The translations under genes were made by a program, and so were the position numbers. Below the pieces are notes generated by a model. The model had not been told where the DNA came from, made no database searches, and saw only the letters and a program-made list of their open reading frames with translations. Below are positions 2,178 to 40,314 of a DNA stretch of 64,000 nucleotides, one piece after another. Source of the DNA: Ruminococcus sp. (GTDB lineage Bacteria > Bacillota > Clostridia > Oscillospirales > Ruminococcaceae); the NCBI GenBank assembly GCA_017620025.1, contig JAFZRF010000055.1, positions 62,001 through 126,000 of the forward strand, given 5' to 3'. Position 1 is the stretch's first letter; each line of letters starts with the position of its first letter.

Positions 2178-2210
2178 AGCCTGTCCGGTACTTGCCGGGC
2201 AGGCTCTTTT
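2178..2210. terminator. Rho-independent terminator between convergent operons
   Basis: An 11-bp stem (AGCCTGTCCGG / CCGGGCAGGCT, one G-T pair) with a TACTTG loop is followed by CTTTT. It ends the radical SAM operon on the plus strand. AAAA upstream gives a weaker T-run on the minus strand, so it may also serve pncB. Confidence 0.85.
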
Positions 2211-2214
2211 ATAA

Positions 2215-3420
2215 TTATTTATTCTTGCTCTTTTCTCTGTCTATCCTGAACTGCACAGAACGCTTGAGGTATTCAAGGTACTCAGTATCACGGCACATTG
2301 CCTTTCCGATATCATCGGAGAGCTTTGCAACAGGTCTGCCGTTGACATACTGGAGCTTGATTACGATATTCAGAGCATTCTCCTCGGTATCGTTTGAGCA
2401 GAATGTACCGATACCAAAAGATACCTTCGTCTTGTCGCAGAAGTACTCATAAAGCTTCTGGGCACGGTCGAAGTCAAGGCTGTCGCTGAACAGCAGAAGC
2501 TTTGTCTTCGGGTCTACGCCGTACTTCTTGTAGTGAGCAATTATCTTCTCGCCCCATGCGTAGGGATCACCGCTGTCGTGACGGACGCCGGTATAGTTGT
2601 TCACCATGGAACGGTTGAAATCAAGCAGGAAGAGGTCTGTTGTAATAGTATCTGTGAGTGCTGTACCGTTATCGCCGTCATACTCGTCATACCAGTCATT
2701 CATTGCATAGTGGTTGGTATAGGCAAGCGGTATGGAATCGATGCCCTGATACATCTGCACAAATTCATGTGCATAGGTTCCGATAGGTGTAACGTTGTAC
2801 TTCATTGCAAGATATACGTTGGAAGTACCCACACACTTGTCAGTCTCGGTGCAGAGACGCTTTACCACAACGTCCTCCCACTCACGGGAAAGTCTTCTGC
2901 GGCAGCCGAACTCAGCGAACTTGAAAGTATAAGTACCGTCGTTCAGAGCCCTGATCTTGGCATCAAGGCGCTCCTCGGCAGATTTTCTCAGCTTTTCGTA
3001 ATCGTACTGCATACGGAAGTAGACCTCGTTTACGATCTCAAGCAGGTAGATCTCAAACTGCATTGCAGAGAAGAGAGGGCCGTCGACAACTATCTTAAGC
3101 TCGCCGTTTTCGTCAAGCTCGGCTGTAACGTAATCACGGAGAGGTCTCCACAGTCTGAGGAACTCCACATAGTCATCCTTGATGAAACGGATGGAACGGA
3201 GGTAGTCAAGCTCTTCCTTTCTGAAGGAAAGTGTGCAGAGGTGGTCGATCTGTTCGTTGATCTCCTTCACCATTTCCGGTGTGAATACAACACCCTTGTT
3301 GCGGCACTTGAAAAAGTACTGTCCGCAGAGATCGGTATGCTTGTGGAAGATGACCTGATCCATATTGAACTTGTAAAGATCAGTGTCGAGCAGTGAAATA
3401 ACAATAGGTTCAAGTTTCAT
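2215..3420 (-). CDS. pncB: Nicotinate phosphoribosyltransferase
   Basis: This 401-aa protein is a full-length NAPRTase: it converts nicotinate and PRPP (with ATP) into nicotinate mononucleotide, the entry step of the Preiss-Handler NAD salvage route. Recognisable segments are the N-terminal LLDTDLYKFNMDQVIF, the central GTSNVYLAMKY, and GVRHDSGDPYAW, which corresponds to the phosphoribosyl-binding region of type II PRTases. The start has AAGGAG six bases upstream. It is the last of four closely spaced genes (12-15 bp gaps) headed by an NrtR-type regulator, and lies directly after a nicotinamidase, which makes its substrate. This fits the pncAB salvage module exactly. Confidence 0.95.
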   Translation of the reverse strand: MKLEPIVISLLDTDLYKFNMDQVIFHKHTDLCGQYFFKCRNKGVVFTPEMVKEINEQIDHLCTLSFRKEELDYLRSIRFIKDDYVEFLRLWRPLRDYVTAELDENGELKIVVDGPLFSAMQFEIYLLEIVNEVYFRMQYDYEKLRKSAEERLDAKIRALNDGTYTFKFAEFGCRRRLSREWEDVVVKRLCTETDKCVGTSNVYLAMKYNVTPIGTYAHEFVQMYQGIDSIPLAYTNHYAMNDWYDEYDGDNGTALTDTITTDLFLLDFNRSMVNNYTGVRHDSGDPYAWGEKIIAHYKKYGVDPKTKLLLFSDSLDFDRAQKLYEYFCDKTKVSFGIGTFCSNDTEENALNIVIKLQYVNGRPVAKLSDDIGKAMCRDTEYLEYLKRSVQFRIDREKSKNK

Positions 3421-3432
3421 AGTTTTTTCTCC

Positions 3433-3957
3433 TTATAAAATATCTATCTGACAGCTTCTCATGGTCTCGATAGCTGCATCATGCTTCTCAGGTGTTACTC
3501 CGGCGCAGCACTTCTCGTCAACCGCTATCGCAGCCTCCGGGAAATTGGCTTTCAGTATCAGTGCATTGCTTATTACGCATATATCCGTGCAGAGTCCGAT
3601 AAGCTCTATCGTGAAATCTTCGCCCTCCGCGGCTCTGATGATAAGCTCGGAGAGGTCTACAGAGCCGAATGTGAACTTATCCACCGGAGTAAACTCCTTT
3701 TTTTCAAGGACTTTGGCTATATCCTTGTAAAGCTGCCAGCCCTCCGTATCCTTTATGCAGTGCGGAACAGGCAGTTTTCTGCCCTCGGCAGTATCCATAT
3801 AGTTTTCAAAGTGAGTGTCGAAAGTGGCGAATATCTCTCCGTCAAATTCTTCGATCTTCTTTACTGCCGCCGGAATGATAGCCTGTGCTTCCTTTGTTCC
3901 GAGAGCACCGTCTACGAAATCCTTCTGCATATCAACTACGATAAGAAATTTTTTCAT
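3433..3957 (-). CDS. pncA: Nicotinamidase-type cysteine hydrolase
   Basis: This 174-aa isochorismatase-fold hydrolase has the N-terminal VVDMQKDFVDGALG motif holding the catalytic Asp, a later Lys (in PVDKFTFGS), and the nucleophile Cys in the segment LIGLCTDICVISNA. A metal-site DTH follows IFATF. These fit nicotinamidases, which deaminate nicotinamide to nicotinate. The length is normal, and AAAGGGGG precedes the ATG. The gene lies 12 bp upstream of pncB and under the NrtR operon promoter, so the substrate assignment rests on both motif and context. Other isochorismatase-family amidases are possible but unlikely here. Confidence 0.88.
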   Translation of the reverse strand: MKKFLIVVDMQKDFVDGALGTKEAQAIIPAAVKKIEEFDGEIFATFDTHFENYMDTAEGRKLPVPHCIKDTEGWQLYKDIAKVLEKKEFTPVDKFTFGSVDLSELIIRAAEGEDFTIELIGLCTDICVISNALILKANFPEAAIAVDEKCCAGVTPEKHDAAIETMRSCQIDIL

Positions 3958-3970
3958 TATAATCCCCCTT

Positions 3971-5881
3971 TCAGAGATCTGCTTTTAAGTAAGCGTCAAG
4001 TATTATCCTTGCATGATCGAATGCAAGACCGTTGTTTTCAATTATCTCACAGCTGTACTGTGTTTTGCGAAGCTTTGCGGACAGCTTCTTTTCACCGCAC
4101 GCAAGCACTACAGTATACTCATCGCCGTTCTTAGCGACATCAATACAGAACCACTTTGCATCGACTGCATCATCTCCGCTCAGGACCTCAACTGCATTCA
4201 TGTCAACGACTGCGGCATACGCACAGCTTATCACCCTGCCGCGGGGATCACGGGCAACGTCACTGTAATTGCCTACCGGTATCAGCTGAACGCTTTCAAC
4301 TCCCGTCTCCTCCGCAAGCTCTCTTGCAGCAGCCTGCTCGAGAGTTTCATCGCTCTTTATGAAGCCGCCTGCAAGAGCCCAGTGATTCATGTAAGGATGC
4401 TCGCCTCTTCTGATAAGAAGCAGCTGCGTTCTTTCGGATGCCTTGCCGAATACCGCAATATCCACGGCGATTGAAGGACGGAAGTAGCTTTCGATATCGT
4501 ATGCGTCAAGGAAGAGTTTCTCATCATTCTCCTCGCCCAGTGACTTGGCTGCAAAGGCAGTTTTCAGCTCCTCCTTTGAACGCTTTGAGTAGAACAGTGG
4601 TATAACGCCGTTTATATGGTCTGCGCCGTGCTCGCTCAGCCACAGTCTTCCGTCATTGAGGTACATCAGCTTGTTTTCAAGTACGAAATCAACTTCATCC
4701 CTGAAGTACTCGCAGAAATCAAGCCCGAAGCGTGCCTTGAAGGCTTCAAGGTCAACGAAGGCGAAGTAGAAGGCCACGGATACCATTTTCGCAATGCTTT
4801 CCTCTTTCGGGAGTGGGTATATATCCTGTATCGGGAGCCTGCCTTCCTCGATCGCCTTCCTGTAGCGTTCCATACGCTTTTCGGCTGCTCCGAGATTGTA
4901 CGCAAGGTAATCCATACCGAAGGACTGTGCTCCGAGTCCCATGCCGACATACGGTGTGCCGTAGATAACACGCTTTGTCAGGTAATCGCTCGTTCCGTAG
5001 TCACCGGGCACTCTGCTGAACGTGTTCTTTCCGATATTGGCACAGTAGCCGCTCTCAGTAAGCATATTGTATGCGAGCCTGTACTGGTATACCGCCTTGT
5101 ATATGGATACTCCGCCGGCCTCGCCCTCTATCTTCGTACCCTTGTAGCGGTTGCGGTAGAGAGTTATATGCTCCGGCGCAAGCTCCACTGCATAGCGAAT
5201 CGTAATTCTGAAATCCGTATCCGTCTGATAGAGGAAGCCGTACATCAGGTCGATGTTGAAGCTTGTGAATCCGGCCTTGCGGATATTCTCAACTGCCCTT
5301 TCGTATATGGAGGCACTGCCCTCTCTGCCGAGCTCGCTGAGCAGCTTTTCTGATACGGTCTGCACGCCCATGCTTATCCTGCGGTAGCCGAGATCGTAAA
5401 GCGCCTTTATCTTCTCAGGCTCATTGGCGGCTATCAGCGGGGTGGTCTCAACGCTGAACACAACGCCCTCCTGAATATCGAACAGCTCATTCACCGCATT
5501 TGTTATGCGCTCAAGATTGCGTACAGAGAGCTTTGAGGGTGTACCGCCGCCGAGGTCATATCCGACTATTTTCTTGCCCCTGAGTATCTCAGAGTACATC
5601 TTCATTTCCTTCAGAAGCAGTTCAACATATTCGTTCTCGCAGTCCTCGTCGGTATGCTCAAGAACTACATACTCACAGAACCTGCATCTCTGCTTGCAGA
5701 AGGGAATGTGTATATAGAGGGACAGCTCGTCGGTCTTCTGCCATTCATTGCAAACAAAATCATAGATCTTATCCCTGTCATTGATCCTGTACTGCATGAA
5801 GGACTGTGGTGTGAGCGGATAGGCTGTATTCGCATAGTGGTGATACAGCAGACCTGTTTCGTAGATCTCATTGCAATTCAT
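3971..5881 (-). CDS. Fusion of a HemN/HutW-like radical SAM enzyme with a NUDIX domain
   Basis: This 636-aa protein has two parts. The N-terminal part (about residues 1-450) is a coproporphyrinogen-dehydrogenase-like radical SAM enzyme: YIHIPFCKQRCRFC gives Cys62, Cys66 and Cys69, followed by DLGGGTPS and RISMGVQTV motifs; the extra Cys of HemN (CxxxCxxCxC) is absent. From about residue 468 there is a NUDIX domain with a perfect GX5EX7REUXEEXGU box at 506-528. This domain resembles the NUDIX part of the adjacent NrtR-like regulator (shared RPS, GxHPY, WAL.GGF and GLAFDHA) but lacks its winged helix. It lies 15 bp after the regulator and 13 bp before the nicotinamidase. The known family suggests porphyrin or haem-type chemistry or a radical enzyme regulated by ADP-ribose or NAD-related ligands; which one is unknown. 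Confidence 0.85.
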   Translation of the reverse strand: MNCNEIYETGLLYHHYANTAYPLTPQSFMQYRINDRDKIYDFVCNEWQKTDELSLYIHIPFCKQRCRFCEYVVLEHTDEDCENEYVELLLKEMKMYSEILRGKKIVGYDLGGGTPSKLSVRNLERITNAVNELFDIQEGVVFSVETTPLIAANEPEKIKALYDLGYRRISMGVQTVSEKLLSELGREGSASIYERAVENIRKAGFTSFNIDLMYGFLYQTDTDFRITIRYAVELAPEHITLYRNRYKGTKIEGEAGGVSIYKAVYQYRLAYNMLTESGYCANIGKNTFSRVPGDYGTSDYLTKRVIYGTPYVGMGLGAQSFGMDYLAYNLGAAEKRMERYRKAIEEGRLPIQDIYPLPKEESIAKMVSVAFYFAFVDLEAFKARFGLDFCEYFRDEVDFVLENKLMYLNDGRLWLSEHGADHINGVIPLFYSKRSKEELKTAFAAKSLGEENDEKLFLDAYDIESYFRPSIAVDIAVFGKASERTQLLLIRRGEHPYMNHWALAGGFIKSDETLEQAAARELAEETGVESVQLIPVGNYSDVARDPRGRVISCAYAAVVDMNAVEVLSGDDAVDAKWFCIDVAKNGDEYTVVLACGEKKLSAKLRKTQYSCEIIENNGLAFDHARIILDAYLKADL

Positions 5882-5896
5882 AACATTACCCCCTGT

Positions 5897-6712
5897 TCAT
5901 TTTTTTCGTGTATAGAGCTTGGCGGGACGATGCCGCTCCCCCTTTACGTATTCGTCTGTCTCCTCGACATAGCTGCCTATCATGCGTCTGAAATTGCCCG
6001 GAAGCACAGTGACGTTCATGATAGTCTCCTGCACTCTTTGCAGCGCTGTGAGAGTGAACTTCTCCGGCAGGAAATCGAATATGGCATCAAACTTCTTGGC
6101 CTCATGCCGCAGAACTGTCAGCGCCATGGCTATTATCGAAGCATGGTCGAATGCAAGACCGCCGCTTTCGATGATACGGAACTCAGTGCGCCGGTAGCTT
6201 GTCTTTTCCTCTGAAAGAACCGCTTTCAGCGATACATCATCATATTCGAGCGTGAGATGATACAGCCCGTCGTCACTTTGTTCAAAGCTTACGATGAACC
6301 ACTGTGCATCATCAGCGTCATCCATGGCGACCTGCTTTACCGATTCTTCCGTGATGATCGATACATAGGCATTCGAGATAATCCAGCCGCGGGGATCACG
6401 TCCCGGCTTGCTGAATGTGCCGACCGGCAGGAGTGCTGTCGGCATTACATTCGTCTCCTCCTGTATCTCCCTCAGCGCACATTCCTCAACGGTCTCGTTG
6501 CTCTGAAGGAATCCGCCCGGAAGTGCCCAGCAGCCCTTGTACGGATGCCCGCCTCTCTTTATGAGAAGCAGCCGGAGCTTGTTATCCGGATCCTTTCGGT
6601 CGCTCGTCTTATCCTCCGTGCTGATCATGAATGCCGCGACATCGGTTGTAAGCGAAGGACGTTCATAGTCTTTGATGTTATAGTTCGATAAAAACTCCTT
6701 CTCAGATTCCAT
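5897..6712 (-). CDS. nrtR: NrtR-type NUDIX transcriptional regulator of NAD metabolism
   Basis: This 271-aa protein has an N-terminal NUDIX domain (box at about 67-89, catalytic REIQEE kept but the usual Gly near the end of the box replaced by Asn) and a C-terminal winged helix (about 212-271, FTLTALQRVQE, NFRRMI, RPAKLYTRK). This is the NrtR architecture: a repressor whose NUDIX domain senses ADP-ribose-type metabolites. AAGGAGG stands ahead of the ATG. It heads the operon for nicotinate/nicotinamide salvage, and a 25-bp palindrome covers its own promoter, so autoregulation is likely. The changed Gly suggests ligand binding rather than efficient hydrolysis, which is an inference. Confidence 0.88.
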   Translation of the reverse strand: MESEKEFLSNYNIKDYERPSLTTDVAAFMISTEDKTSDRKDPDNKLRLLLIKRGGHPYKGCWALPGGFLQSNETVEECALREIQEETNVMPTALLPVGTFSKPGRDPRGWIISNAYVSIITEESVKQVAMDDADDAQWFIVSFEQSDDGLYHLTLEYDDVSLKAVLSEEKTSYRRTEFRIIESGGLAFDHASIIAMALTVLRHEAKKFDAIFDFLPEKFTLTALQRVQETIMNVTVLPGNFRRMIGSYVEETDEYVKGERHRPAKLYTRKK

Positions 6713-6734
6713 TGTACTCGCCTCCTTTGTTTTT

Positions 6735-6759
6735 CTTAATATGATAATATCACATTAAG
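6735..6759. promoter_or_regulatory. 25-bp palindrome, candidate NrtR operator
   Basis: The sequence CTTAATATGATAATATCAC continued by ATTAAG reads the same on both strands except at two symmetric positions and the centre. It overlaps the spacer and -10 box of the minus-strand promoter at 6744-6772, the classical place for a repressor. NrtR genes usually bind their own promoters, so this is the likely operator. Confidence 0.75.
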
Positions 6760-6772
6760 AATAATTTGTCAA
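6744..6772 (-). promoter_or_regulatory. Sigma-A promoter of the NAD-salvage operon
   Basis: On the minus strand TTGACA (6772-6767) and TATTAT (6749-6744) are separated by 17 bp. The start of nrtR lies about 32 bp downstream of the -10 box. Confidence 0.85.
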
Positions 6773-6910: not shown

Positions 6911-9496
6911 ATGGCTGAATATGTGATAACCTTTTCCCCGGAATATTTGGCTTCAAGTCTCTGGGGCAAAAATGACGCGGCTCAGGCTGCTTTCGGATAT
7001 GAGATCGATTACAGCGAGCTTCCGCTGTCCGAGGAGCTTGTCAGGAAGCTTAATGATTTTGACGACGAATGTATGGGTATCATCGACTGGGATGATCCCG
7101 GAAAGGGTGATGTGCGGCCAATTGAAGAGAGGATAGCGTACTACGAAAAAGGCCTCGACCTACTCGAACTTATACGCGGTGAGCTCGGAGACAGATTTGA
7201 AGTCATTGACGGCCTCGACTGGATAAAACCGGAGCCGCTGAAGATCATCGGTATCAAGTGCTCCGTGGCCATTATGTCCCTTGCCCAGAGGTTCATGAAC
7301 TGCCTTGGGTTCAGTATACTTGAAGAGCTCCCCTGCTCGCTGCCGAGAAAGATAAGCTTCACCGCTGAGGAGGGAGAATGTATCTGCTGGTACAAGGGTG
7401 AGAGCTGCTGCATCAAACCGGATACTCACCTTTCCATAATGGCAAGGGTACCGCATTTCTACGATTCCGACCGTTCACCGTGCAGGCTCTCTTCGCTTTC
7501 GGATATGCTGAATGACCTTGTCGGAAAGACCGATGTATACTATCTGTATGATATCTGTTACCCGAGGGACAGCGAATGGCGGGAGAATGTATTCATAAAA
7601 GGCAAATCAAATCACTTCTTCATTCACAACCACACAGAGGAAGACAAAGATTACACTGATGAGCATACTCCTGCCGTCTACTATCAGAAGCTCTATGATG
7701 TGATGCGGAAAAAAGCAGAAAGCAAGGGATATTCCGATGTCCTCAGCCTTATCTCCTGTGAGTTCAACAAGAATATCAACGATATATACTACGAGGATGA
7801 ATTCGACCAGTACCACTACAACGGCGAAGGAATATTCATCCCGGCGGATTTCACACGCATCTACGAAAAGCCTCTGGATGGAAATATGTTTTACTCCCCG
7901 TCTCTGAAAAGGATAAGGGTCGCTCCGGACAATCAGCATTACTGCGACACAGACGGGGTGCTGTTCAGCAAGGACAGAAAAACACTTATCCGCCTGCCGA
8001 GAGCCATCGAAGGAAAATACGTCATACCCGAGGGAACAGAGATCATCGGCTGCCATGCCTTTGAAGGCTGTGACACAGAGGAAATAATCATTCCTCCGAC
8101 GGTGAAGAAGATCGGAAAATCCGCCTTTGAATACAGCAGCATCTCTTCCGTAACGATACCCGAAGGCATCACAAGGATAGAAGCGAAGGCTTTTACCAAT
8201 TGCGAAAAACTCGTCAGAGCCGTACTTCCCGAAAGTCTTGAATACATAGGCGATAACGCTTTCAGCGGCTGCGAAAGTCTCACCCATATCAATATCCCCT
8301 CTGGTGTAAGACTGATTGACAGCTGCGCCTTTGAGGACTGCAGCAGGCTCTCCGAACTTAATATCCCTCCTGATGCCGGGATAGGCAATCTTGCGCTGCA
8401 CCAAACGGCATGGCTCGAGAATTATGCCGACGACTTTGTTATCATAAACGGCTTGCTCTATCAATACAAGGGAAGTGATGAGAATGTCATCATACCCGAT
8501 GGCGTGAAGTCGATAGGCTTCTGGGCATTCGGGCAAAACGAAAAGCTGGGTTCTGTGACCATTCCGGAAACAGTCACAAAGATCTGTACCTGTGCATTCT
8601 ACGAATGCAGGAACCTTGCTGAAATCAACATCCCCGAAAGCGTCACTGTGATTGAAAACAACGCCTTCTTACGCACCAAATGGGAGGAATCTCAGGGAGA
8701 TCTTATAATCGTAAACGACATACTGTATCGCTACAAAGGGAACGACAGCAGCATCATTGTTCCTGAGGGCGTTCGTGTTATAGCAGAAGACGCATTTAAT
8801 CACAAAAGCTCACTTGTGTCTGTTACCCTCCCCGAAGGCCTTGAACGCATAGAGATGGACGCATTTTCCGGCTGCTCCAGACTTGAAAAGGTCAATATAC
8901 CGGACAGTGTTACCTATATTTCAAGGACTGCCTTCTATAACTGCCAGACTCTTGCAAAGCTTATAAAAGAAGGAAAAGCCGAAAACATACTGGCAAGGCC
9001 TCTTACGGAAGAGAAGCTTATGATCATCGCAGGCACTGACAAACAAATAGGCGCCGCTTTTGAAAACATCAGCGAACTCAGCGACAAGGAGTATCTTAAG
9101 CTGTATTCCTACTGTCTCAATCTCAGCTCCTGGTATGATTTTGCGGCTCAGTACATTAGTACGAACTACCTGATGCTGCTTCACGAAAGAGAACCGGAGC
9201 GTTTACGCAGCAGCTTCCCTGAGGCTTTCAGAAAGACGTTCACCTCCGTGAACAGCGAGAATTTCTACGGTGCTTTCGATGAGCTTTGCAGGCTGTTCGC
9301 AGTCATGGACAGGGACATTTACAGACAGCTCCTTGAACTCAGCCTTGCGGCTCCGAATGACTGTATCTCAGAGGAGGCGGAAAAGCTGCTCGCTTCTCCC
9401 GATGATACCGACGGGGAGTATAAAGAATATCTGCTGAAAACGTATTCTGATTTCAAGAACAGGATACCTTATAATAAACCACGAAAGGATGTATAA
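6911..9496 (+). CDS. Cytoplasmic BspA-type leucine-rich repeat protein
   Basis: This 861-aa protein starts at an ATG with AAGGAGG 12 bases upstream. Residues from about 350 to 690 hold LRR_5 (BspA/TpLRR) repeats of about 23 residues with the pattern IxxxAFxxCxxLxxVxIPxxVxxI. Unlike the other such protein in this window it has no signal peptide and no dockerin; the first 340 residues form an unrecognised acidic domain and the last 170 a helical tail. Known LRR_5 proteins mediate protein-protein contacts, mostly at the cell surface, so an intracellular one is less usual. The next gene starts 2 bp after its stop, implying one transcript. Function is unknown; a scaffold or sensor role is only a guess. 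Confidence 0.8.
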   Translation: MAEYVITFSPEYLASSLWGKNDAAQAAFGYEIDYSELPLSEELVRKLNDFDDECMGIIDWDDPGKGDVRPIEERIAYYEKGLDLLELIRGELGDRFEVIDGLDWIKPEPLKIIGIKCSVAIMSLAQRFMNCLGFSILEELPCSLPRKISFTAEEGECICWYKGESCCIKPDTHLSIMARVPHFYDSDRSPCRLSSLSDMLNDLVGKTDVYYLYDICYPRDSEWRENVFIKGKSNHFFIHNHTEEDKDYTDEHTPAVYYQKLYDVMRKKAESKGYSDVLSLISCEFNKNINDIYYEDEFDQYHYNGEGIFIPADFTRIYEKPLDGNMFYSPSLKRIRVAPDNQHYCDTDGVLFSKDRKTLIRLPRAIEGKYVIPEGTEIIGCHAFEGCDTEEIIIPPTVKKIGKSAFEYSSISSVTIPEGITRIEAKAFTNCEKLVRAVLPESLEYIGDNAFSGCESLTHINIPSGVRLIDSCAFEDCSRLSELNIPPDAGIGNLALHQTAWLENYADDFVIINGLLYQYKGSDENVIIPDGVKSIGFWAFGQNEKLGSVTIPETVTKICTCAFYECRNLAEINIPESVTVIENNAFLRTKWEESQGDLIIVNDILYRYKGNDSSIIVPEGVRVIAEDAFNHKSSLVSVTLPEGLERIEMDAFSGCSRLEKVNIPDSVTYISRTAFYNCQTLAKLIKEGKAENILARPLTEEKLMIIAGTDKQIGAAFENISELSDKEYLKLYSYCLNLSSWYDFAAQYISTNYLMLLHEREPERLRSSFPEAFRKTFTSVNSENFYGAFDELCRLFAVMDRDIYRQLLELSLAAPNDCISEEAEKLLASPDDTDGEYKEYLLKTYSDFKNRIPYNKPRKDV

Positions 9497-24492: not shown

Positions 24493-24516
24493 ATCGGGCA
24501 GCCGAAACTGCCCGAT
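24493..24516 (-). promoter_or_regulatory. Intercistronic hairpin without T-tract
   Basis: Perfect 9-bp stem ATCGGGCAG / CTGCCCGAT with a 6-nt loop, between the CbiK-like gene and the next. With no T-run on the minus strand it is more likely an mRNA-stability or processing element than a terminator. Confidence 0.5.
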
Positions 24517-24555
24517 AGAATGTCATATTGCCTGTAACGCAGATACCGTTCCGTC

Positions 24556-25632
24556 TTACTTGATAGAATCGACAGCCTTCTGTGCGTGCTCGATGTAGAT
24601 CTGTCTGATTGCTTCGTTCTCGCCGAGACCTCTGATCACACACTCTACCTCATAGCCAGCATCCTCGAAGATGCTCTTCCATGAATCCTCATCGTCGCCT
24701 GCCATATCGTTGTTAGCGTGATCGCCTGCAACTACCATGAGGGGCTCGAGGACTACCTTTTCATAGCTGCCGTTCTTAACCAGCTCGAGTACGTCCTCAA
24801 CGGAGGGCTCTGCCTCAACTGTGCCTACGAAGTAGTTCTTGTGGCCGTCAGCTGTAAGCATATCCTGCATCTTAGAGTATACGCTGTTGGAATCGGCCTC
24901 TGTACCGTGTCCCATGAAGCAGATAGCTGTCTTTCCGTCGTCATACTCTGCTGTCCAGTTTACGATAGCGTTCTCAACACGCTTGAAGTCATCATCGCTT
25001 GTGAGAAGCGGCTCGCCGAATGCTACCTTCTCGAAAGCATCTGAGTACTCTGCAACTGTATCAACGATCTCGTTGTACTCGATACCGTTCATAAGGTGTG
25101 TGGGCTGTATAACAAGGTTCTTTACGCCGTTGTCAACTGCTCTCTCGAGTGCCTTGTTGATATCATCGATGAGTATTCCGTCACGGCGCTGTACATGGTC
25201 GATGATGATGTTTGCTGTGAATCCGCGGCGCACTGCATACTCAGGGAATGCCTTCTCGAGAGCACTCTCGATAGCACCGATAGTGAAACGGCGGCTGTCA
25301 TTGTAGCTTGTACCGAAGCTGAGAACGAGCAGCTCGTTGTCGCCGATATTGTCCTCGTTGCGGATATTGTCAAGGGAAGCATCGCCTGTATCGTAGTTCT
25401 CCTCGTCTTCCTCTTCTTCTGCCTCTGTCTCCTCCTCTGTGGGAGCTTCTGTCTCTTCCTCAGTAGGTGCTTCTGTCTCCTCCTCAGTTGCCTCTTCCGT
25501 AGCCTCCTCAGTTGCAGTCTCTGAAGCGGGCTCTGTGGGAGCTGTATCGGATGTTGTGCCGGCAGCACCGCAGGATGTAGCAGCTGCTGTCAGGCAGGCA
25601 AGACTGATGATGAGTGCAAGTGTCTTTTTCAT
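24556..25632 (-). CDS. cbiK: Exported CbiK-like sirohydrochlorin cobaltochelatase lipoprotein
   Basis: The start ATG at 25632 follows AGGAAG. The 358-aa product has a lipoprotein signal (ATSC, Cys21), a very acidic spacer at about 33-79 made of TEEE/TEAP units, and a complete CbiK domain (about 95-358) with metal-binding His179 (QPTHLMNG) and His242 (MGHGTEAD). CbiK inserts Co(II) into sirohydrochlorin in anaerobic cobalamin synthesis, normally in the cytoplasm; here the enzyme is predicted outside the membrane. It is the first gene of the riboswitch-controlled uptake operon. It could metallate or handle tetrapyrroles, or act as a metal- or porphyrin-binding receptor. Confidence 0.88.
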   Translation of the reverse strand: MKKTLALIISLACLTAAATSCGAAGTTSDTAPTEPASETATEEATEEATEEETEAPTEEETEAPTEEETEAEEEEDEENYDTGDASLDNIRNEDNIGDNELLVLSFGTSYNDSRRFTIGAIESALEKAFPEYAVRRGFTANIIIDHVQRRDGILIDDINKALERAVDNGVKNLVIQPTHLMNGIEYNEIVDTVAEYSDAFEKVAFGEPLLTSDDDFKRVENAIVNWTAEYDDGKTAICFMGHGTEADSNSVYSKMQDMLTADGHKNYFVGTVEAEPSVEDVLELVKNGSYEKVVLEPLMVVAGDHANNDMAGDDEDSWKSIFEDAGYEVECVIRGLGENEAIRQIYIEHAQKAVDSIK

Positions 25633-25671
25633 AATGATCTTCCTTTCTGTGAAAGGCCTGACCGCATAACG

Positions 25672-25699
25672 AAAAAAGCCCTCTGAACAGGCAGAAGGC
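25672..25699 (-). terminator. Intrinsic terminator of the cobalamin riboswitch
   Basis: Stem GCCTTCTG / CAGAGGGC (one T-G pair) followed by TTTTTT on the minus strand, 40 bp before cbiK. It is the likely expression platform: ligand binding ends transcription here. Confidence 0.8.
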
Positions 25700-25778
25700 A
25701 CGCAGACAGACTCCCCCGGGAGTCCGCATAACAGTACGATCAAAACCTCGTGACCCTGGCCTTGCGGCCATGTACCAA

Positions 25779-25950
25779 CAAACGGCAGGTTTCCTGACTT
25801 ATGCCTCAGCACGGTATACAGCCTTCCCGATCGCTCAGTGACTATATTCGCATACCGCTCCGCAATTACAGTGACGGGTTCGTGCAGGAACTTCACCTGC
25901 TTCCCTTTTACCTTTCCGCACGGTATACCGTCGGAAAGCACCGTTTGCCT
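25779..25950 (-). ncRNA. Cobalamin riboswitch aptamer
   Basis: On the minus strand the RNA has the conserved features of the B12 element: the GGGAAGCAGGTGAAG and CCTGCACGAACCCGTCAC core, GGAAGGC, and the B12 box AAGTCAGGAAACCTGCC (25800-25784). P1 is closed by CAAACGG (25947-25941) with CCGTTTG (25785-25779). It controls the operon 25632 down to 20237 through the terminator at 25672-25699. Confidence 0.95.
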
Positions 25951-25972
25951 TTTTAAATTTTCAACAATAAAC

Positions 25973-26001
25973 ATTATAGCAGACTTGCTCTGCAAATGCA
26001 A
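25973..26001 (-). promoter_or_regulatory. Promoter of the riboswitch operon
   Basis: On the minus strand TTGCAT (26001-25996), 17-bp spacer, TATAAT (25978-25973). Transcription would start just ahead of P1 of the riboswitch. Confidence 0.82.
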
Positions 26002-26039
26002 GTATTACGCAGATTTTGTACGTATACAACGAATCGTCT

Positions 26040-26681
26040 TCACTTTTTCAGGCCTTTTTTGGCGTCAAGCATATACAGCAGGGCGTTGCATATCGCCGCC
26101 GCCACATTGCTTCCTCCCTTTCTGCCCCTTGCAACTATACACGGGATACCGGTCTCTATTATCATTTCCTTTGACTGCACAACGTTCACGAATCCTACAG
26201 GAGCGCCTATTATGAGCTCCGGTACGAAGGTGCCGGCCTTGATATGCTCGCTGAGCCTTACCAGTGCAGTCGGGGCGTTTCCGACGGCGTACACCACGGG
26301 CCGTCCGAGTCCGGCGGCCTTGTCAACGGATGCCGCCGCTCTTGTTGTGCCGTTCAGCCTTGCCGTCTCTGCGATATCCTTATCCGCCATGAAGCACTCA
26401 CACTCACAGCCGTGACGGGCAAGTGCGGCCTTGTTGATGCCTGCCTTTGCCATATTGGTATCTGTGACTATCAGTGCGCCCCTGTCAAGCACCGAGAGAG
26501 CGGTATCAATGACATTCTCCGAGAAGTAAAGATTCTCCGCATAGTCGAAATCGGCAGTTGTATGTATCGCACGCATGACTACGGGCTTTATCTCCTCCGG
26601 TATCTCCCTTTCGAGCTCGCTCTCTATTATTTCAAAACTGCGCCGCTCAATATCGGCGGGCAGCACATATTCCAGCTTCAT
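26040..26681 (-). CDS. cbiC: Cobalt-precorrin-8 methylmutase
   Basis: This 213-aa enzyme moves a methyl group from C11 to C12 to give cobyrinate. Family motifs are RAIHTTADFDYAENLYFSE, ALIVTDTNMAKAGI and ELIIGAPVGFVNV. It is the last gene of the biosynthetic operon and overlaps cbiP by 4 bp. Confidence 0.95.
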   Translation of the reverse strand: MKLEYVLPADIERRSFEIIESELEREIPEEIKPVVMRAIHTTADFDYAENLYFSENVIDTALSVLDRGALIVTDTNMAKAGINKAALARHGCECECFMADKDIAETARLNGTTRAAASVDKAAGLGRPVVYAVGNAPTALVRLSEHIKAGTFVPELIIGAPVGFVNVVQSKEMIIETGIPCIVARGRKGGSNVAAAICNALLYMLDAKKGLKK

Positions 26682-28147
26682 ACGCCCTCCTCAATGATCT
26701 TGTAGATATACTCCGTGTCAAGCGCCTTTCGCACGCTGTCCGCGAGTATGTCAAGCTGCTCCTCACGGTACTCCCTCCGCCCGCAGACTCTTCCGTTGTA
26801 TTCCATACCCCTGCGCCTGTAAAGCGCTCTTACAAGCCTGCCTGATACCTCGGCGGTATCGAATATGCCGTGTACGTAGCAGCCTGCCGCATTGCCGGAG
26901 AAGCTGCCTCCGCAGTCGGTGAGCGGTTCGCCGCTGTCCGCCGTGACGCCCATGTGTATCTCATAGCCCTCAAACACAGCTCCGGAGAGGCAGGAGAAAA
27001 AGCCGTGTATATCGCAGAATCGGCCGCTTACCTGAGTCTGCCGTTTCTCCTTGCTGAACACCGTTGTACTGACAAGCAGACCGAGTCCGCTGACACTGCC
27101 GCCGCATTCGCTGCCGTCAGGGTCGGATATGGTCCTTCCCATGAGCTGATAGCCGCCGCATATCCCGAATACCGGTATACCCTCGCCGCAGCGCTCTCTC
27201 ACCGCCTCAGCAAGACCGCTCTCCCTGAGCCACGCCATATCCGCTATGGTGCTCTTTGTGCCGGGAAGGATGATCAAATCCGGCGTGCCGAGCTCTGATG
27301 CATTGGATACATAGCGCACCGATACTCCGTCATACTGTCCGAATACGTCAAGGTCTGTGAAGTTGGATATCTTCGGCAGGCGTATCACGGCTATGTCTAT
27401 GATGCCGCTCATCTCACGCCTTGTCAGTCTGGTTGAAAGACTGTCCTCGTCCTCAAGGTCACAGCTGAGATACGGCACTACTCCTGCAACTCTCTTGCCG
27501 GAACGCTCCTCAAGTATATCTATACCGTCGCGGAACAGTCCTATATCGCCGCGGAACTTGTTCACAACAAGCCCCTTTACAAGCTCCCGTTCGCTTTCCT
27601 CAAGCAGAGCGAGCGTACCGATGAGCTGTGCGAACACTCCGCCCCTGTCGATATCACCGACAAGCAGGACGGGCGCTCTTACAAGCTTTGCAAGCCCCAT
27701 ATTCACGATATCGTCGGCTTTGAGATTCAGCTCCACGGGACTTCCCGCACCTTCTATCACGATGATGTCGTGCTGCGAGGCAAGAGTACCGTATGCCGAC
27801 ATGATATCCGGTATAAGCTCCTTCTTGTGCCGGAAGTAATCCGCCGCCTTCATATTTCCACGCACTTTGCCGTTCACTATGACCTGCGAGCCGATGTCAG
27901 TCGTCGGTTTCAGCAGTACCGGATTCATCAGCGCGGAGGGCTCTATACCTGCCGCCTCAGCCTGTAATGCCTGCGCCCTTCCTATCTCGAGCCCGTCACG
28001 GGTGACAAAGGAATTGAGCGCCATATTCTGGGACTTGAACGGAGCAGCGGTATAGCCGTCCTGACGGAATATCCGGCAGAGGGCCGCTGTCAGCACGCTC
28101 TTGCCGACATCGGACATGGTCCCCTGCAGCATTATGCACTTAGCCAT
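26678..28147 (-). CDS. cbiP: Cobyric acid synthase (glutamine-hydrolysing)
   Basis: This 489-aa enzyme amidates four carboxylates of adenosylcobyrinate diamide. The N-terminal MLQGTMSDVGKSVLTAALCR is the P-loop-like ATP site, and the C-terminal glutamine amidotransferase domain has the nucleophile in VFGICGGYQLMG and a late His (AGCYVHGIFD). Length is normal. It overlaps the following cbiC by 4 bp and the preceding cobD by 8 bp, so it is translationally coupled. Confidence 0.95.
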   Translation of the reverse strand: MAKCIMLQGTMSDVGKSVLTAALCRIFRQDGYTAAPFKSQNMALNSFVTRDGLEIGRAQALQAEAAGIEPSALMNPVLLKPTTDIGSQVIVNGKVRGNMKAADYFRHKKELIPDIMSAYGTLASQHDIIVIEGAGSPVELNLKADDIVNMGLAKLVRAPVLLVGDIDRGGVFAQLIGTLALLEESERELVKGLVVNKFRGDIGLFRDGIDILEERSGKRVAGVVPYLSCDLEDEDSLSTRLTRREMSGIIDIAVIRLPKISNFTDLDVFGQYDGVSVRYVSNASELGTPDLIILPGTKSTIADMAWLRESGLAEAVRERCGEGIPVFGICGGYQLMGRTISDPDGSECGGSVSGLGLLVSTTVFSKEKRQTQVSGRFCDIHGFFSCLSGAVFEGYEIHMGVTADSGEPLTDCGGSFSGNAAGCYVHGIFDTAEVSGRLVRALYRRRGMEYNGRVCGRREYREEQLDILADSVRKALDTEYIYKIIEEGV

Positions 28148-29174
28148 TGATACACCTCCTCAGCGCTGTTATAAGCCGTGTGTTATCTTCGTACCCTCTC
28201 ACAGCGATACGGTAAAAGCCCTCTTCAAGTCCGTGAAAGCTCTGGCAGTCACGGATAAGTATGCCCTCGGATAGCATTTTTTCACAGAGCCCGGGAAGAC
28301 TGCGGAAGAAGATGAAATCCGCCTCGCTGCCATATACTCTTATCCCCATATCCCGCATCGATGAGATAAGATATTCACGTTCAGCAGTCACGTAATTCAC
28401 TGTCCGTTCTGTATAGTCCTTTTCTCCGAGTGCAGCTGTACCGGCTGCCTGAGCAATTGAAGATACGCTCCAGAACTGTCCGCTCCCGGCTATCCTCTGA
28501 GCAGTTTCAGCACTGCCGCAGACCGTATATCCGAGCCGCAGCCCCGGCATGGCATAGAGCTTTGTAAAGGCCTTGAGGATTATGCAGTTACCGCTGATAA
28601 ACCGCCGGAGACTGTATTTATCCCCGTCCCTTACAAATCCCATAAAGCACTCGTCACACACAAGCAGTATCCCGTTCTCTTCACATCTTCGGGCTGTGCG
28701 TTCAAGCAGCTCCGGCTCAATGAGAAGCCCCGTCGGGTTGTTCGGAGTGCATAGAAAGCAGATATCGACAGAACCGTCAAGCTCGTCAAGTATGCTGTCT
28801 GTAAGTACAAAGCCGTTTTCCTCCGTCAGCAGATGCTCTGCAATGCTGCAATCAGCTTCATTGAGCGCACGGGTGTATTCCCCGAATGACGGAGCACATA
28901 CTACGGCTTTCTGAGGACGGAAGGCATGGACGATGCGATAGATAAGGTCGGCAGCACCGTTTCCGCAGACTATGTTGTCCGGTGATATCTTCTCATGCTC
29001 TGCCAACCTCTGCCGCAGCTCAGTACAGTAAGGGTCAGGGTATTGTTCAGCACCGTCAATACTGCCGCTCAAAGCAGCCCTGACGCTATCCGGCATACCA
29101 AGTGGATTGATATTAGCCGAGAAATCGGTCACACCGGGAAAACGTCCGGTGTTCCCGCCGTGAAGCTGTATCAT
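28140..29174 (-). CDS. cobD: Threonine-phosphate decarboxylase, CobD type
   Basis: This 344-aa fold-type I PLP enzyme resembles histidinol-phosphate aminotransferases (HGGNTGRF at the N-terminus, FLCTPNNPTGLLI, and the PLP lysine in KAFTKLYAMPGLRLGY). In a cobalamin operon it is the CobD enzyme making (R)-1-amino-2-propanol phosphate. I start at ATG 29174: AGGAGG is directly upstream and the ATGA overlap with cbiB matches the rest of the operon, whereas the ATG eight codons earlier has no ribosome site. Confidence 0.9.
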   Translation of the reverse strand: MIQLHGGNTGRFPGVTDFSANINPLGMPDSVRAALSGSIDGAEQYPDPYCTELRQRLAEHEKISPDNIVCGNGAADLIYRIVHAFRPQKAVVCAPSFGEYTRALNEADCSIAEHLLTEENGFVLTDSILDELDGSVDICFLCTPNNPTGLLIEPELLERTARRCEENGILLVCDECFMGFVRDGDKYSLRRFISGNCIILKAFTKLYAMPGLRLGYTVCGSAETAQRIAGSGQFWSVSSIAQAAGTAALGEKDYTERTVNYVTAEREYLISSMRDMGIRVYGSEADFIFFRSLPGLCEKMLSEGILIRDCQSFHGLEEGFYRIAVRGYEDNTRLITALRRCING

Positions 29175-30136
29175 GTCATACCTCCTGCGATAATACATCT
29201 CAGAGCCGCTGATATCACGAGCATCAGCACTGATGCGCCGTACAGGAGCCTGTTCGCACGGCGTATGTCCTCCGGCTCGATGCTCCTGTCGTCGTCGCCT
29301 ATATAGGGCTTTTTGTGGAGCTCACCGAAGTACCATGCATCTCCCGCAAGACGAAGGTGAAGAGCTCCCGCACAGGCAGATTCAGTCTGCGCCGAGTTCG
29401 GGCTTGCATGATTTCGCCTGTCACGCTTCCAGATACGAAGCGCATTTCTTCCGTCAAGGCGGAACAACGGCGCAGAAGCCGCCATAAGGAGCGCTGTAAG
29501 GCGTGAGGGAATGTAGTTGAGAACGTCGTCGAGTTTTGCCGCAAACCGGCCTATATCGGCGTATTCCTCGTTACGGTAGCCGATCATCGAATCCATCGTG
29601 TTGACCGCTTTGTAGAGAAATGCGCCCGTAGCTCCTCCGAGTCCCATGAAGAAGAGCGGAGCAGTCACGCCGTCAGAGGTATTCTCCGCAACTGTTTCCA
29701 CCGCCGCACGTATTATCCCGTCACGGTCAAGCACAGCCGTATCACGGCCGACTATCATCGAGACAGCTCTTCTTGCCGCCTCGGTATCGCCCGACTCCGC
29801 AGCACGGCATACCTTCATGCTCTCGCTGCACAGACACCTCGCCGCAAGCATATAGCAGCAGAGAACAGTCTCAGCAGCGATCCCGAGAACGGTATGTATC
29901 CTGTAGCATATCCTGAGGACAAGCAGGGGAGCAGTAAAGGAGAGCAGTATCACGGTAACGGCAAGCAGTACCCCGCCGAGACGCAGATTCTTCATACGGC
30001 TGCGGACATACTTTTCAAGTCTGCTGATAAGCCTGCCGATAAGTCTTACCGGATGCGGGATATTATAGGGATCACCGACCAGCGAATCGAGCAGAAAGGC
30101 CAGTACGACCGGAAGAGCCGGCAAAAGCTGTTTCAT
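29171..30136 (-). CDS. cbiB: Adenosylcobinamide-phosphate synthase
   Basis: This 321-aa membrane enzyme joins aminopropanol phosphate to adenosylcobyric acid. Motifs are LLDSLVGDPYNIPHPVRLIG, the central VGRDTAVLDRDGIIRAAVETVAEN-like segment and MIGYRNEEYADIGRF. The start at 30136 gives an ATGA overlap with the previous gene and has AAAGGAG upstream; the earlier ATG has neither. Confidence 0.94.
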   Translation of the reverse strand: MKQLLPALPVVLAFLLDSLVGDPYNIPHPVRLIGRLISRLEKYVRSRMKNLRLGGVLLAVTVILLSFTAPLLVLRICYRIHTVLGIAAETVLCCYMLAARCLCSESMKVCRAAESGDTEAARRAVSMIVGRDTAVLDRDGIIRAAVETVAENTSDGVTAPLFFMGLGGATGAFLYKAVNTMDSMIGYRNEEYADIGRFAAKLDDVLNYIPSRLTALLMAASAPLFRLDGRNALRIWKRDRRNHASPNSAQTESACAGALHLRLAGDAWYFGELHKKPYIGDDDRSIEPEDIRRANRLLYGASVLMLVISAALRCIIAGGMT

Positions 30137-30693
30137 ATCTTCTCCTTTACGCTGAGCGACGTGCCGTCCCACAGGCATATATACCCGTGACCGTTCTCAC
30201 AGTGCCAGCTGTAGTAATCGCCGTGCGGAACGGCGTATTTTTCGAGTACAGACATTATTGTTCCGCCGTGAACGACAAACGCAATCGAGCCTGAAGCGGC
30301 GTATTTTCTGACGATCATTTCAAATGCCGCTGCACATCTCTGTCTGAAATCCGCCGGACTTTCACCGTTTGGAAATTGCATTCCGCCGCCGCTGTCAACC
30401 CACCTCTGATAGTCAGGATTGTCGGAAAGCTCCTTGTAGTTTTTACCTTCAAAGTCGCCGAAATCACACTCTCTGAGGTCATCGCAGAGAGTGATAGTCT
30501 GTGCTGGATAAATCCTCTCTGCCGTCTGTATACAGCGCTTCATCGGGCTGCATACAAGCACATCACAGGGCTCCGGTGTGAGCTCACGGAGGGCTGTTTC
30601 GCCCTCGTTGCACAGAGGTTCGTCAGTCCTGCCGATGTAGCGCTTTTCGAGGTTTCCGGCAGTAAGTCCGTGCCTGATGAATACTGTCCTCAT
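30133..30693 (-). CDS. cobC: Alpha-ribazole phosphatase, histidine phosphatase family
   Basis: This 186-aa phosphoglycerate-mutase-like phosphatase has the RHG motif (FIRHGLTAGN, catalytic His8) and a second His in VVHGGTIMSVL. It removes phosphate from alpha-ribazole-5'-phosphate or adenosylcobalamin phosphate in the nucleotide-loop pathway. Overlaps of 4 bp on both sides place it firmly in the operon. Confidence 0.88.
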   Translation of the reverse strand: MRTVFIRHGLTAGNLEKRYIGRTDEPLCNEGETALRELTPEPCDVLVCSPMKRCIQTAERIYPAQTITLCDDLRECDFGDFEGKNYKELSDNPDYQRWVDSGGGMQFPNGESPADFRQRCAAAFEMIVRKYAASGSIAFVVHGGTIMSVLEKYAVPHGDYYSWHCENGHGYICLWDGTSLSVKEKI

Positions 30694-31073
30694 GGCATCT
30701 CACCCTTTATGGCAGAGGGGATGCCGCAGACGAGCCTGATAACAGAATCAGAGCGGGCAGCGATGATACAGCCGCATCTTCCCACGTTCTCACGCCATAC
30801 CCTCTCGCTCTTTTCCAGCGGAACTATACCGCAGCCGATCTCATCTATGATGATGACTGCACGCTTATTTCTCCTGCACAGCTCTTCCGTAAAGGGGATA
30901 CACTCCTCACCGAGACGCTTTACAAGTTCATGGAAGGAACTGATACAACGGGCAGAAACAGCCTCCTCCGGCGTACATATCCTGCCGTCTGCGATATCCT
31001 CAGGGGCTATACCGAGTCTTTCCGTGACGAATGCCGTCTTGCCCTGATATGCCCCGCCTGTTACCATGATCAT
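30690..31073 (-). CDS. Short CobU-like P-loop protein
   Basis: This 127-aa protein starts MIMVTGGAYQGKT, a Walker A like that of CobU, and ends IRLVCGIPSAIKGEMP, which parallels the C-terminus of the full CobU next door (VYGIPVVLKGELPC). It lacks much of the middle found in the 173-aa CobU, including the His-containing ERHRKMR segment that carries the guanylate in CobU, so it probably cannot be a complete kinase/guanylyltransferase. Several clostridial operons carry such a second copy. A partial kinase or accessory subunit is plausible. Confidence 0.75.
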   Translation of the reverse strand: MIMVTGGAYQGKTAFVTERLGIAPEDIADGRICTPEEAVSARCISSFHELVKRLGEECIPFTEELCRRNKRAVIIIDEIGCGIVPLEKSERVWRENVGRCGCIIAARSDSVIRLVCGIPSAIKGEMP

Positions 31074-31834
31074 AGTGATGTTATCCTTTCCGCAATTACT
31101 GCCGCTGCAAGTACCGCTGTCTCACATACCACAGTGAACCAGCCGCAGAGATCTCCCGTTATTCCGCCGAAATCACGGTATGAAGCATACCTGTGATATC
31201 CGAGCACTGCCGCCGCTGCCAGAACAGATACAGCTCCGACTGCCGGAGATAGCACTACAGATACCGCAGCAGATACGATGATGAAGAATACCTCCATAGC
31301 AACAGTGATGTTCCTGTGGGCAGGCTTCACGAAGCTCTGCAGTGTGCCGGAGGACTTCGCCGAGCGGAAGGTCACGGCAGTAAGACCGCTGAGTGCACGG
31401 GAGAGAACATATCCGCAGGCTATGACTCCGGCTGTCCTCAGCTCTGTGACCTCAGAAAACAGCGCAGTCTGTACTATAAGGCAGAGACATACTCTTATCA
31501 CTGCAAATGAGCCTATATGCGGATCTGACATTATCTCAAGGCGTTTCTCCCTGTCGGCATAGGTTGCTCTTGCGTCCGTGACATCGCAGAAGCCGTCAAG
31601 GTGTATGCCTCCTGTAACAAGCACGGAGAGTAATACCGCACCCGCAGCAAAGAGCAGCTGTCCGATGCCGATGCGGTCGCAGAAAAGCCTCCACAGCATA
31701 AGAAGACCGCCGGTCACAGCACCGACGAGCGGGAAGAACCCCAGCGCATACCGCCGGTTTTCCTCCTTCCACTCCACCCTCGGGACAGGGATGCGGGAAT
31801 ACATAAGAAAGGCAGAACAGAGCGATTTCAGCAT
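31070..31834 (-). CDS. cobS: Adenosylcobinamide-GDP ribazoletransferase (cobalamin synthase)
   Basis: This 254-aa membrane protein has the CobS signature start (FLMYSRIPVP), GFFPLVGAVTGG and the metal-binding GIHLDGFCDVTDA. It joins the lower ligand nucleotide to adenosylcobinamide-GDP. The start at 31834 overlaps the CobU stop (ATGCTGA); the ATG 14 codons earlier lies inside cobU without a ribosome site. Confidence 0.94.
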   Translation of the reverse strand: MLKSLCSAFLMYSRIPVPRVEWKEENRRYALGFFPLVGAVTGGLLMLWRLFCDRIGIGQLLFAAGAVLLSVLVTGGIHLDGFCDVTDARATYADREKRLEIMSDPHIGSFAVIRVCLCLIVQTALFSEVTELRTAGVIACGYVLSRALSGLTAVTFRSAKSSGTLQSFVKPAHRNITVAMEVFFIIVSAAVSVVLSPAVGAVSVLAAAAVLGYHRYASYRDFGGITGDLCGWFTVVCETAVLAAAVIAERITSL

Positions 31835-39138: not shown

Positions 39139-39139
39139 A

Positions 39140-40270: not shown

Positions 40271-40314
40271 GTTTGTTATCACCTGCCATCTTCTGAAAAT
40301 GTCCGCTGTATTTT

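Follow-up and report, generated by a model that had tools for sequence, protein, structure and literature searches.

A HemN-like radical SAM protein fused to an NrtR-type NUDIX domain among NAD-salvage genes of Ruminococcus sp., and its NrtR-associated relatives

A 64,000-nucleotide stretch of the Ruminococcus sp. contig JAFZRF010000055.1 (hereafter the window, with positions counted from its first letter) encodes a 636-residue protein (3971..5881, minus strand) in which a HemN-like radical S-adenosylmethionine (SAM) domain is joined to a NUDIX domain related to that of NrtR, the ADP-ribose-responsive repressor of nicotinamide adenine dinucleotide (NAD) genes. Its domains are known ones but their arrangement is new, and it belongs to an uncharacterised subfamily in which other members carry a whole NrtR repressor at the C-terminus. 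A tie between this enzyme and the NrtR/NAD regulon is well supported, in the Oscillospiraceae at least. The best explanation of the findings as a whole, which we regard as evenly poised between right and wrong, is that of a radical SAM enzyme with expression, and probably also activity, linked to ADP-ribose.

The fusion gene belongs to a four-gene operon on the minus strand, in the order nrtR, fusion, pncA, pncB, with gaps of 15, 13 and 12 bp. The first gene (5897..6712, 271 residues) encodes a regulator that combines in one chain a NUDIX domain (residues 44-142, PF00293, 58.7 bits) and an NrtR winged-helix domain (WHD; residues 212-267, PF21906, 62.0 bits), both above the curated Pfam cut-offs used throughout; it is therefore a member of NrtR, and its NUDIX box ends in EETN. 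The pncA gene (3433..3957, 174 residues) is assigned as nicotinamidase-like from its Pfam superfamily (Isochorismatase, PF00857, 83.3 bits) and its operon setting, the NCBIfam nicotinamidase match being weak (26.3 of 174 bits), and pncB (2215..3420, 401 residues) encodes a nicotinate phosphoribosyltransferase (NAPRTase, PF04095, 219 bits; NF003704, 489 bits against a cut-off of 379). The open reading frames, domains and 12-15 bp gaps thus bear out the original prediction, made from the letters of this stretch, of an operon of these four genes.

The radical half of the fusion contains a Radical_SAM domain (residues 56-230, 5192..5716, PF04055, 71.1 bits), within which the CX3CX2C [4Fe-4S]/SAM motif (C62/C66/C69, 5675..5698) and a GGGTP motif place it in the radical SAM superfamily, and a HemN_C domain (residues 376-419, 4625..4756, PF06969, 26.8 bits against a cut-off of 24). 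The CX3CX2C motif is present in 18 of 18 aligned family rows. The NUDIX domain follows (residues 472-583, 4133..4468, PF00293, 67.6 bits), and its box (residues 506-528, 4298..4366) matches the hydrolase signature GX5EX7REUXEEXGU exactly and is, as originally claimed, intact; all these features lie on the minus strand. Pfam detects no NrtR winged helix in this chain. The fused NUDIX domain is 47% identical to the adjacent regulator over fusion residues 451-629, and its five best Protein Data Bank matches are 2fml, 5bs6 (AraR), 3i9x, 3gz8 and 3gz5, the last two of which we take to be chains of SoNrtR. Provided that this is so and that the chain bears a three-residue tag, R547, the second arginine of RDPRG (4241..4243, minus strand), aligns with and is equated with Arg98 of SoNrtR. 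That arginine contacts ADP-ribose, according to passages of PMC4666351. The fusion joint is found again in independent assemblies, and this recurrence, together with low ratios of nonsynonymous to synonymous substitution (dN/dS) in both halves where measurable, argues that it is no assembly accident.

The identity of the radical half was assessed with NCBIfam models, and among the radical SAM models listed none exceeds its cut-off in the four members scanned. The window's protein matches the STM4012 family best (187.6 of 380 bits), then HemN (173.2 of 324.95) and, lower, HemW (147.7 of 205.4) and HutW (138.5), an order that corrects the earlier label of HemN/HutW-like. The STM4012 threshold (NF006067, 380 bits) is likewise missed by three relatives, L050 (191.5), L039 (204.4) and L044 (193.4; L and G numbers denote loci and genomes). 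Fusion and STM4012 proteins have a HemN-like layout in common, but the score is below cut-off, identity to the two STM4012 members compared is 27-28%, and the neighbouring genes differ; we know of no established function for that family. Residues E145, Q174, R186 and D211 of the fusion align with HemN E145, Q172, R184 and D209, which presumably bind SAM, and their conservation is compatible with a HemN-type SAM site. The stretches YRNRYKGT, GKNTFS and PxQDxY show little or no variation across the family alignment.

These matches raise the alternative of a heme or tetrapyrrole protein, that is, a HemN/HemW-type enzyme or chaperone under NAD control. It is favored by the HemN, HemW and HutW models among the best matches and by the radical SAM core plus HemN_C shared with HemN, HemW, HutW and the class C radical SAM methyltransferases. 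The motifs of HemN, HemW and the menaquinone methyltransferases, as defined in passages of PMC10320005, are however missing from the fusion family: the HemN motifs GPRYTSYPTA, RNFQGYTT and CX3CX2CXC and the HemW motif HNxxYW each occur in 0 of 18 rows, and none of the six motifs of MqnK/MenK has an exact match in these rows. A shortened menaquinone-methyltransferase motif, TxYPL, is found in 16 of 18 rows and the cluster motif with Y replacing the last F in all 18. Since all model scores also fall below cut-off, we consider a heme protein quite improbable; a chaperone role would account for what room is left, because CgdH2 binds heme without the HemW motif (passages of PMC10320005). Class C two-SAM methyltransferases bind two SAM molecules simultaneously and transfer a methyl group, as described in part of PMC9692996.

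Relatives were sought with three members' radical halves in the genome_contigs collection, which represents 84,980 species by one genome each, and the best 80 loci were kept. At least 15 relatives have 49-86% identity, after which identity drops, among the matches listed, to 37% or less. With the window, G108 and G522 these make 18 loci, and a later survey added G646, G663 and G733, giving at least 21 including the window; G650, from the same survey, is the contig of L040. The hosts of the 15, as labelled, comprise Oscillospiraceae, Ruminococcus and Clostridia metagenome-assembled genomes (MAGs) and two Clostridium strains, as well as MAGs of Desulfobacterales, Bacteroidetes, Anaeromyxobacter, Planctomycetia (two), Verrucomicrobia and an unplaced bacterium. 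In a radical-domain tree that includes 15 HemN-, HemW- and Prevotella-type outgroup rows and one wrongly extracted row (L121_R), the 18 family rows lie on one side of a branch (94/96), delineating a HemN-like subfamily that is well separated from HemN and HemW.

Three architectures occur in the subfamily. In the first, a whole NrtR (NUDIX plus WHD) forms the C-terminal part of a protein of 719-735 residues (G108, L039, L040, L041, L047, L048, L051, G663 and G733); Radical_SAM, NUDIX and NrtR_WHD exceed the Pfam cut-offs in five of the five long forms scanned (L039, L047, L051, L152 and L153) and HemN_C in four. The second lacks the winged helix and measures 610-671 residues where complete (window, L038, L052, G646, G522, L043, L044, L045 and L046), with L049, whose 5' end is cut, and L042 as incomplete members; the winged helix is absent from the fusions of the window, L038, L052 and L151. 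The third consists of the radical SAM protein alone (L050), with a divergent NUDIX-WHD gene about 540 bp away. These genomes rely almost exclusively on either a fused or a separate NrtR: the NrtR_WHD of the fusion is the only one found in eight of nine genomes of the first type (the exception is G663), and a separate NrtR is found in ten of eleven genomes of the second (the exception is G590). The lack of an NrtR says little in any single genome because many are incomplete MAGs. The Clostridium lacusfryxellense fusion (L042:10001-11662) stops inside the NUDIX part, and the same genome holds a separate NrtR.

The association with NAD genes was evaluated by tblastn. One or more of pncA, pncB, NAMPT and nadE adjoin seven of the first 18 family loci (window, L027, L038, L039, L040, L051 and L052), compared with none of 65 control HemN/HemW-like loci of similar mean length, the window being represented by its first 22 kb; two of the 65 controls have a phosphoribosyl pyrophosphate (PRPP) synthetase-like match alone. 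L039 and L051 have whole operons of fusion, methyltransferase (L051 only), pncA, PRPP synthetase-like gene, NAMPT and nadE, and L153, one of the later loci, also adjoins pncA. It is chiefly in Oscillospiraceae and related Clostridia that the link appears; loci from other phyla lack it. Together with the operator-like sites described below, these counts reinforce the originally proposed association of a radical enzyme with NAD genes and NrtR.

A sigma-70-type promoter, TTGACA-N17-TATTAT with an extended -10 TG (6744..6772, minus strand, 11/12 consensus positions), precedes the window's operon and outranks the other 11 promoter-like sites found in a 5-kb scan. Over its -10 element lies a 29-bp palindrome, TTCTTAATGTGATATTATCATATTAAGAA (6733..6761, minus strand, 26/29 self-complementary), which we predict to be an NrtR operator; its arms form 15 of 17 pairs, and none of 5000 shuffles is equally good. 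A common operator-like layout, TTATT-N7-TGnTATTATCA-N6-AAATAA, recurs around the -10 element, and a matrix was trained on seven sites located upstream of NrtR (window, L038 and L052) or of the fusion (L027, L039, L040 and L041). The window site, itself a training site, scores 42.8 versus 12.4 for the next separate site in the 64 kb. Among 15 stand-alone NrtR loci, the best score falls immediately ahead of the presumed start of NrtR in L014 (37.5), L022 (32.0), L006 (28.3) and L025 (18.8), and among the ten non-training family loci scanned (L049, with its cut 5' end, was left out) it falls before the radical SAM gene in L037 (22.8), L051 (19.3) and L047 (17.6).

In 11 whole genomes the consensus has 12 exact matches, distributed over nine genomes, and 11 of them stand before NrtR, fusion or pncA genes; seven are training sites, and four of the other five precede such genes. 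Allowing up to one mismatch yields 21 matches, against one for the reversed pattern. G585 has an exact site 19 bp before pncA, on another contig than the fusion, whose NrtR_WHD is the only one found in that genome, and in G646 the WHD-less fusion and an NrtR-pncB pair lie on different contigs, both with a site (matrix scores 41.4 and 45.2). A candidate operator as well as a promoter is supported by the outer arms and by the specificity across whole genomes.

Several observations weigh against the explanation by an ADP-ribose-tied enzyme. No pncA, pncB, NAMPT or nadE gene stands beside 11 of the first 18 loci, nor beside L151 or L152, and the 11 include loci labelled Desulfobacterales, Bacteroidetes, Anaeromyxobacter, Verrucomicrobia, Planctomycetia and Clostridium; the NAD queries came from the window and L039, are of Oscillospiraceae type and may favor close hosts. 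The original prediction had counted a scattered fusion without NAD genes as evidence against itself, and this is partly what we see, offset by the operator at the unlinked G646 copy and the remote operator-pncA pair of G585. As to the site, the conservation of its core is inflated because the core overlaps the extended -10 element, so that promoter conservation contributes, and symmetry is weak in single sites (L040, p 0.075; L027, p 0.036). Stand-alone NrtR loci L010, L024, L125 and L128 score only 10-17 before the gene and the others have no such site, and in L042-L046, L048 and L050 the best score does not precede the radical SAM gene. Nine matches have one mismatch: one precedes the G733 fusion, and the four others inspected show no NAD gene. 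One exact site (G583:C176, L178/L193) precedes three tandem copies of an unknown 130-140-residue protein, with no Pfam match in the two copies scanned. G663 holds a second NrtR-like gene besides its WHD fusion, and NdnR, which belongs to the NrtR family, responds to NAD instead of ADP-ribose, according to passages of PMC4666351. Finally, no substrate is indicated, and the detection of NadA in 15 of 18 host genomes leaves no evident hole in NAD synthesis for the enzyme to fill; the idea that it replaces the de novo pathway was rejected on the same count.

The origin of the fused domain was examined in a NUDIX tree of 47 rows, including 16 fusion rows of several phyla, from which L015 (stop inside), L017 (fragment), L042 (cut NUDIX) and loci with radical SAM matches only were left out. 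The fused domains of the window, L038 and L052 form one group (100/100) on a long branch, nested in a 20-row group (88/92) with the long fusions, that of G522 and several stand-alone NrtRs; the L043-L046 and L049 fusions cluster apart from these (95/94), and the window's adjacent NrtR groups with stand-alone NrtRs (98/97). This tree and the Protein Data Bank matches given above uphold the NrtR type of the fused domain. Constraint tests reject neither a single origin of all fused domains (approximately unbiased p value, p-AU, 0.273) nor a recent local duplication (p-AU 0.123). The latter result notwithstanding, descent of the fused NUDIX domain from the adjacent NrtR is not favored, since the tree places that regulator elsewhere. 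In a radical-domain tree built without L121_R and without outgroup rows, the winged helix needs three changes, and one old fusion of radical SAM protein and NrtR with later losses of the winged helix would fit these trees better. The original proposal of winged-helix loss is thus supported in outline, because relatives still carry the domain, and the derivation from the neighboring gene that went with it is probably wrong.

Both halves appear constrained. Synonymous rates are often saturated, which limits dN/dS to five of eight pairs in each half, with values of 0.04-0.11 for the radical half and 0.12-0.19 for the NUDIX half, consistent with purifying selection on the latter. The radical half is better conserved in seven of eight pairs (e.g., 75% versus 48% between the window and L039), the exception being the long forms L041 and L005 (66% versus 69% for the NrtR half). 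Of the 17 fused rows in alignment A4, 16 retain the NUDIX-box glutamates, L049 having QE. An accidental joint of neighboring genes with independent halves would be in keeping with the generally common fusion of operon neighbors, the faster evolution of the NUDIX half in most pairs and the C. lacusfryxellense copy that ends within this part; the persistence of the joint in 16 fusion rows of several phyla and the selection on the NUDIX half and its glutamates make it very improbable.

By eye, the box is intact (all glutamates plus REUXEEXG) in eight of ten WHD-less rows of A4 versus two of seven WHD-bearing rows, or nine of 11 versus two of nine with three added rows; as the rows are not independent, this correlation with winged-helix loss may be taken as suggestive only. 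The NUDIX box is impaired in the NAD regulators studied (passages of PMC4666351) and inactive in two of them, the prototypic NrtR being credited with both hydrolase and repressor functions (part of PMC6800001). Four stand-alone NrtR-type NUDIX proteins from the same bacterial family as the window (L008, L011, L012 and L016), of about 200-230 residues, end soon after AFDH without a winged helix and group with one WHD-bearing NrtR (99/97).

The same comparisons bear on a dual-input regulator, in which the radical SAM half would sense redox, oxygen or SAM and modulate the NrtR part without a metabolic reaction of its own. Its [4Fe-4S] site is an obvious sensor, the whole-NrtR fusions carry the only NrtR_WHD found in eight of nine genomes, several with an operator, and in the L041/L005 pair conservation is no lower in the NrtR half than in the radical half. 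In the other pairs compared, nevertheless, the radical half is the better conserved, the winged helix is missing in several lineages in which radical SAM and NUDIX domains persist, and a member consisting of the radical SAM domain only exists (L050); we consider this reading unlikely.

In our preferred explanation, an ADP-ribose-tied enzyme, the long form of about 720 residues would join a HemN-like radical SAM enzyme to a complete NrtR repressor, NUDIX sensor and winged helix included, and act as its own transcription factor, sitting ligand-free on the operator over its own promoter to repress the NAD-salvage genes until it is displaced by ADP-ribose or a related nucleotide. The lineage of the window would have lost the winged helix and a separate NrtR would have taken over repression, and the fused NUDIX domain, with its intact catalytic box, would remain a ligand-binding or ADP-ribose-hydrolysing partner of the radical domain, which would most likely act on an NAD- or ADP-ribose-derived small molecule. 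A sensor, a hydrolase or both is the best reading of the NUDIX half; we infer the ligand, the DNA binding and the gating, including whether the enzyme is gated by an NAD metabolite or acts on one, and the original interpretation along these lines is right in its core, with its chemistry unproven. That the subfamily performs a previously unrecognized anaerobic step on NAD or ADP-ribose, the long form being its own ADP-ribose-controlled repressor and combining sensing, switching of the salvage operon and radical chemistry in one polypeptide, seems to us possible, with the balance of probability against it. To our knowledge no radical SAM step exists in NAD salvage, and no description of a radical SAM/NrtR fusion was found in openly licensed full texts. 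If true, a radical enzyme and a complete NrtR-type repressor in one chain would constitute a new kind of metabolic switch and offer a concrete handle on an uncharacterised HemN-like subfamily; as ligand, operator and regulon are predicted, substrate screens could be confined to NAD-derived compounds.

Known systems provide partial precedents. The fusion family resembles NrtR (PF21906) in its NUDIX domain, winged helix and intervening AFDHA motif, in the operator-like site over the operon's own promoter and in its NAD-gene targets; it differs in that these domains follow a radical SAM enzyme and in that the window form lacks the winged helix and has an intact NUDIX box. The bifunctional NadM-NUDIX proteins (2qjo, 2qjt) likewise combine an enzyme with a NUDIX domain similar in sequence to the fused one, but their partner is an NMN (nicotinamide mononucleotide) adenylyltransferase rather than a radical SAM domain, and they have no winged helix. 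Enterobacterial NadR, a so-called trigger enzyme, unites enzyme and NAD-gene repressor in one chain like the long fusion, but with unrelated domains. The Shewanella and Synechocystis NrtR proteins bind DNA less well in the presence of ADP-ribose (passages of PMC4666351 and PMC6800001).

Unfused relatives also stand beside NrtR, at L050, where the radical SAM gene is divergent from the NUDIX-WHD gene, and on a plasmid of Prevotella sp. E2-28 (L121), whose relative is 31% identical and has the CEY, NTxYPL and NTFS signatures in common; both associations point to ADP-ribose as a common theme. The plasmid cluster comprises two radical SAM genes, NrtR (NUDIX plus NrtR_WHD by Pfam), an ADP-ribosylglycohydrolase, DUF6717, DUF1810 and leucine-rich-repeat proteins. 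The two domains might act on ADP-ribosylated or ADP-ribose-derived damage products, with NAD salvage as downstream recycling. The distant relative with NrtR, ADP-ribosylglycohydrolase and DUF1810 genes is in line with this, as are the members of several other phyla about 64-70% identical to the window's, which suggest horizontal transfer. NUDIX-controlled ADP-ribosylglycohydrolase systems have moreover been proposed as anti-viral (part of PMC9503650, section 3.8), in a paper whose main text nowhere uses the term radical SAM. The low identity of the plasmid relative, the lack of an ADP-ribosyl enzyme in the window's operon and a PADLOC search that gave only a weak NUDIX-domain match (26.3 bits) speak against repair, which we deem rather unlikely. 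A defense system as such was rejected on the PADLOC result.

The fusion is rare: in the window's family it is full length in two of 197 genomes, including the window's own, and its radical half occurs in six of 396 in a larger draw; in the class draw the fusions of the window and G522 stand, of 391, more than 500 bits above the rest, and in the phylum draw the window's own is the only one among 398. A housekeeping role in the group was rejected accordingly. Phage or plasmid cargo was also rejected, the fusion (80% in one place) being absent from 50,697 phage and 72,556 plasmid records and a pattern scan of IMG/VR giving three distant matches (30-34%). The gene after the planctomycete long fusion (L047:12204-13076) encodes a Phage_30_3 domain (82.6 bits), and the one after the Bacteroidetes fusion (L045:4330-4758) an Imm-NTF2 immunity-type protein (59.4 bits).

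Just past pncB, a 12-pair hairpin (2178..2205), terminator-like on the plus strand only, forms a possible terminator between convergent operons. A tandem pair of radical SAM genes of a different type (375-1055 and 1045-2148, PF04055) converges on the NAD operon, and positions 20-379 resemble the end of the 1045-2148 gene at 41%. The window's genome contains a second, divergent NrtR-like gene, L003 (G000:C19:39313-40074), beside a transposase-like reading frame (by reading), with a best operator-matrix score of only 20.1 about 200 bp upstream. On the other side, divergent from the NAD operon, lies a gene for an 861-residue BspA-type leucine-rich-repeat protein (6911-9496), and a similar-looking protein is encoded near the G108 fusion (L027:6579-8351, by reading). 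Farther away, at about 24500-40300 on the minus strand, a long run of genes resembles, by eye only, a cobalamin-synthesis cluster.

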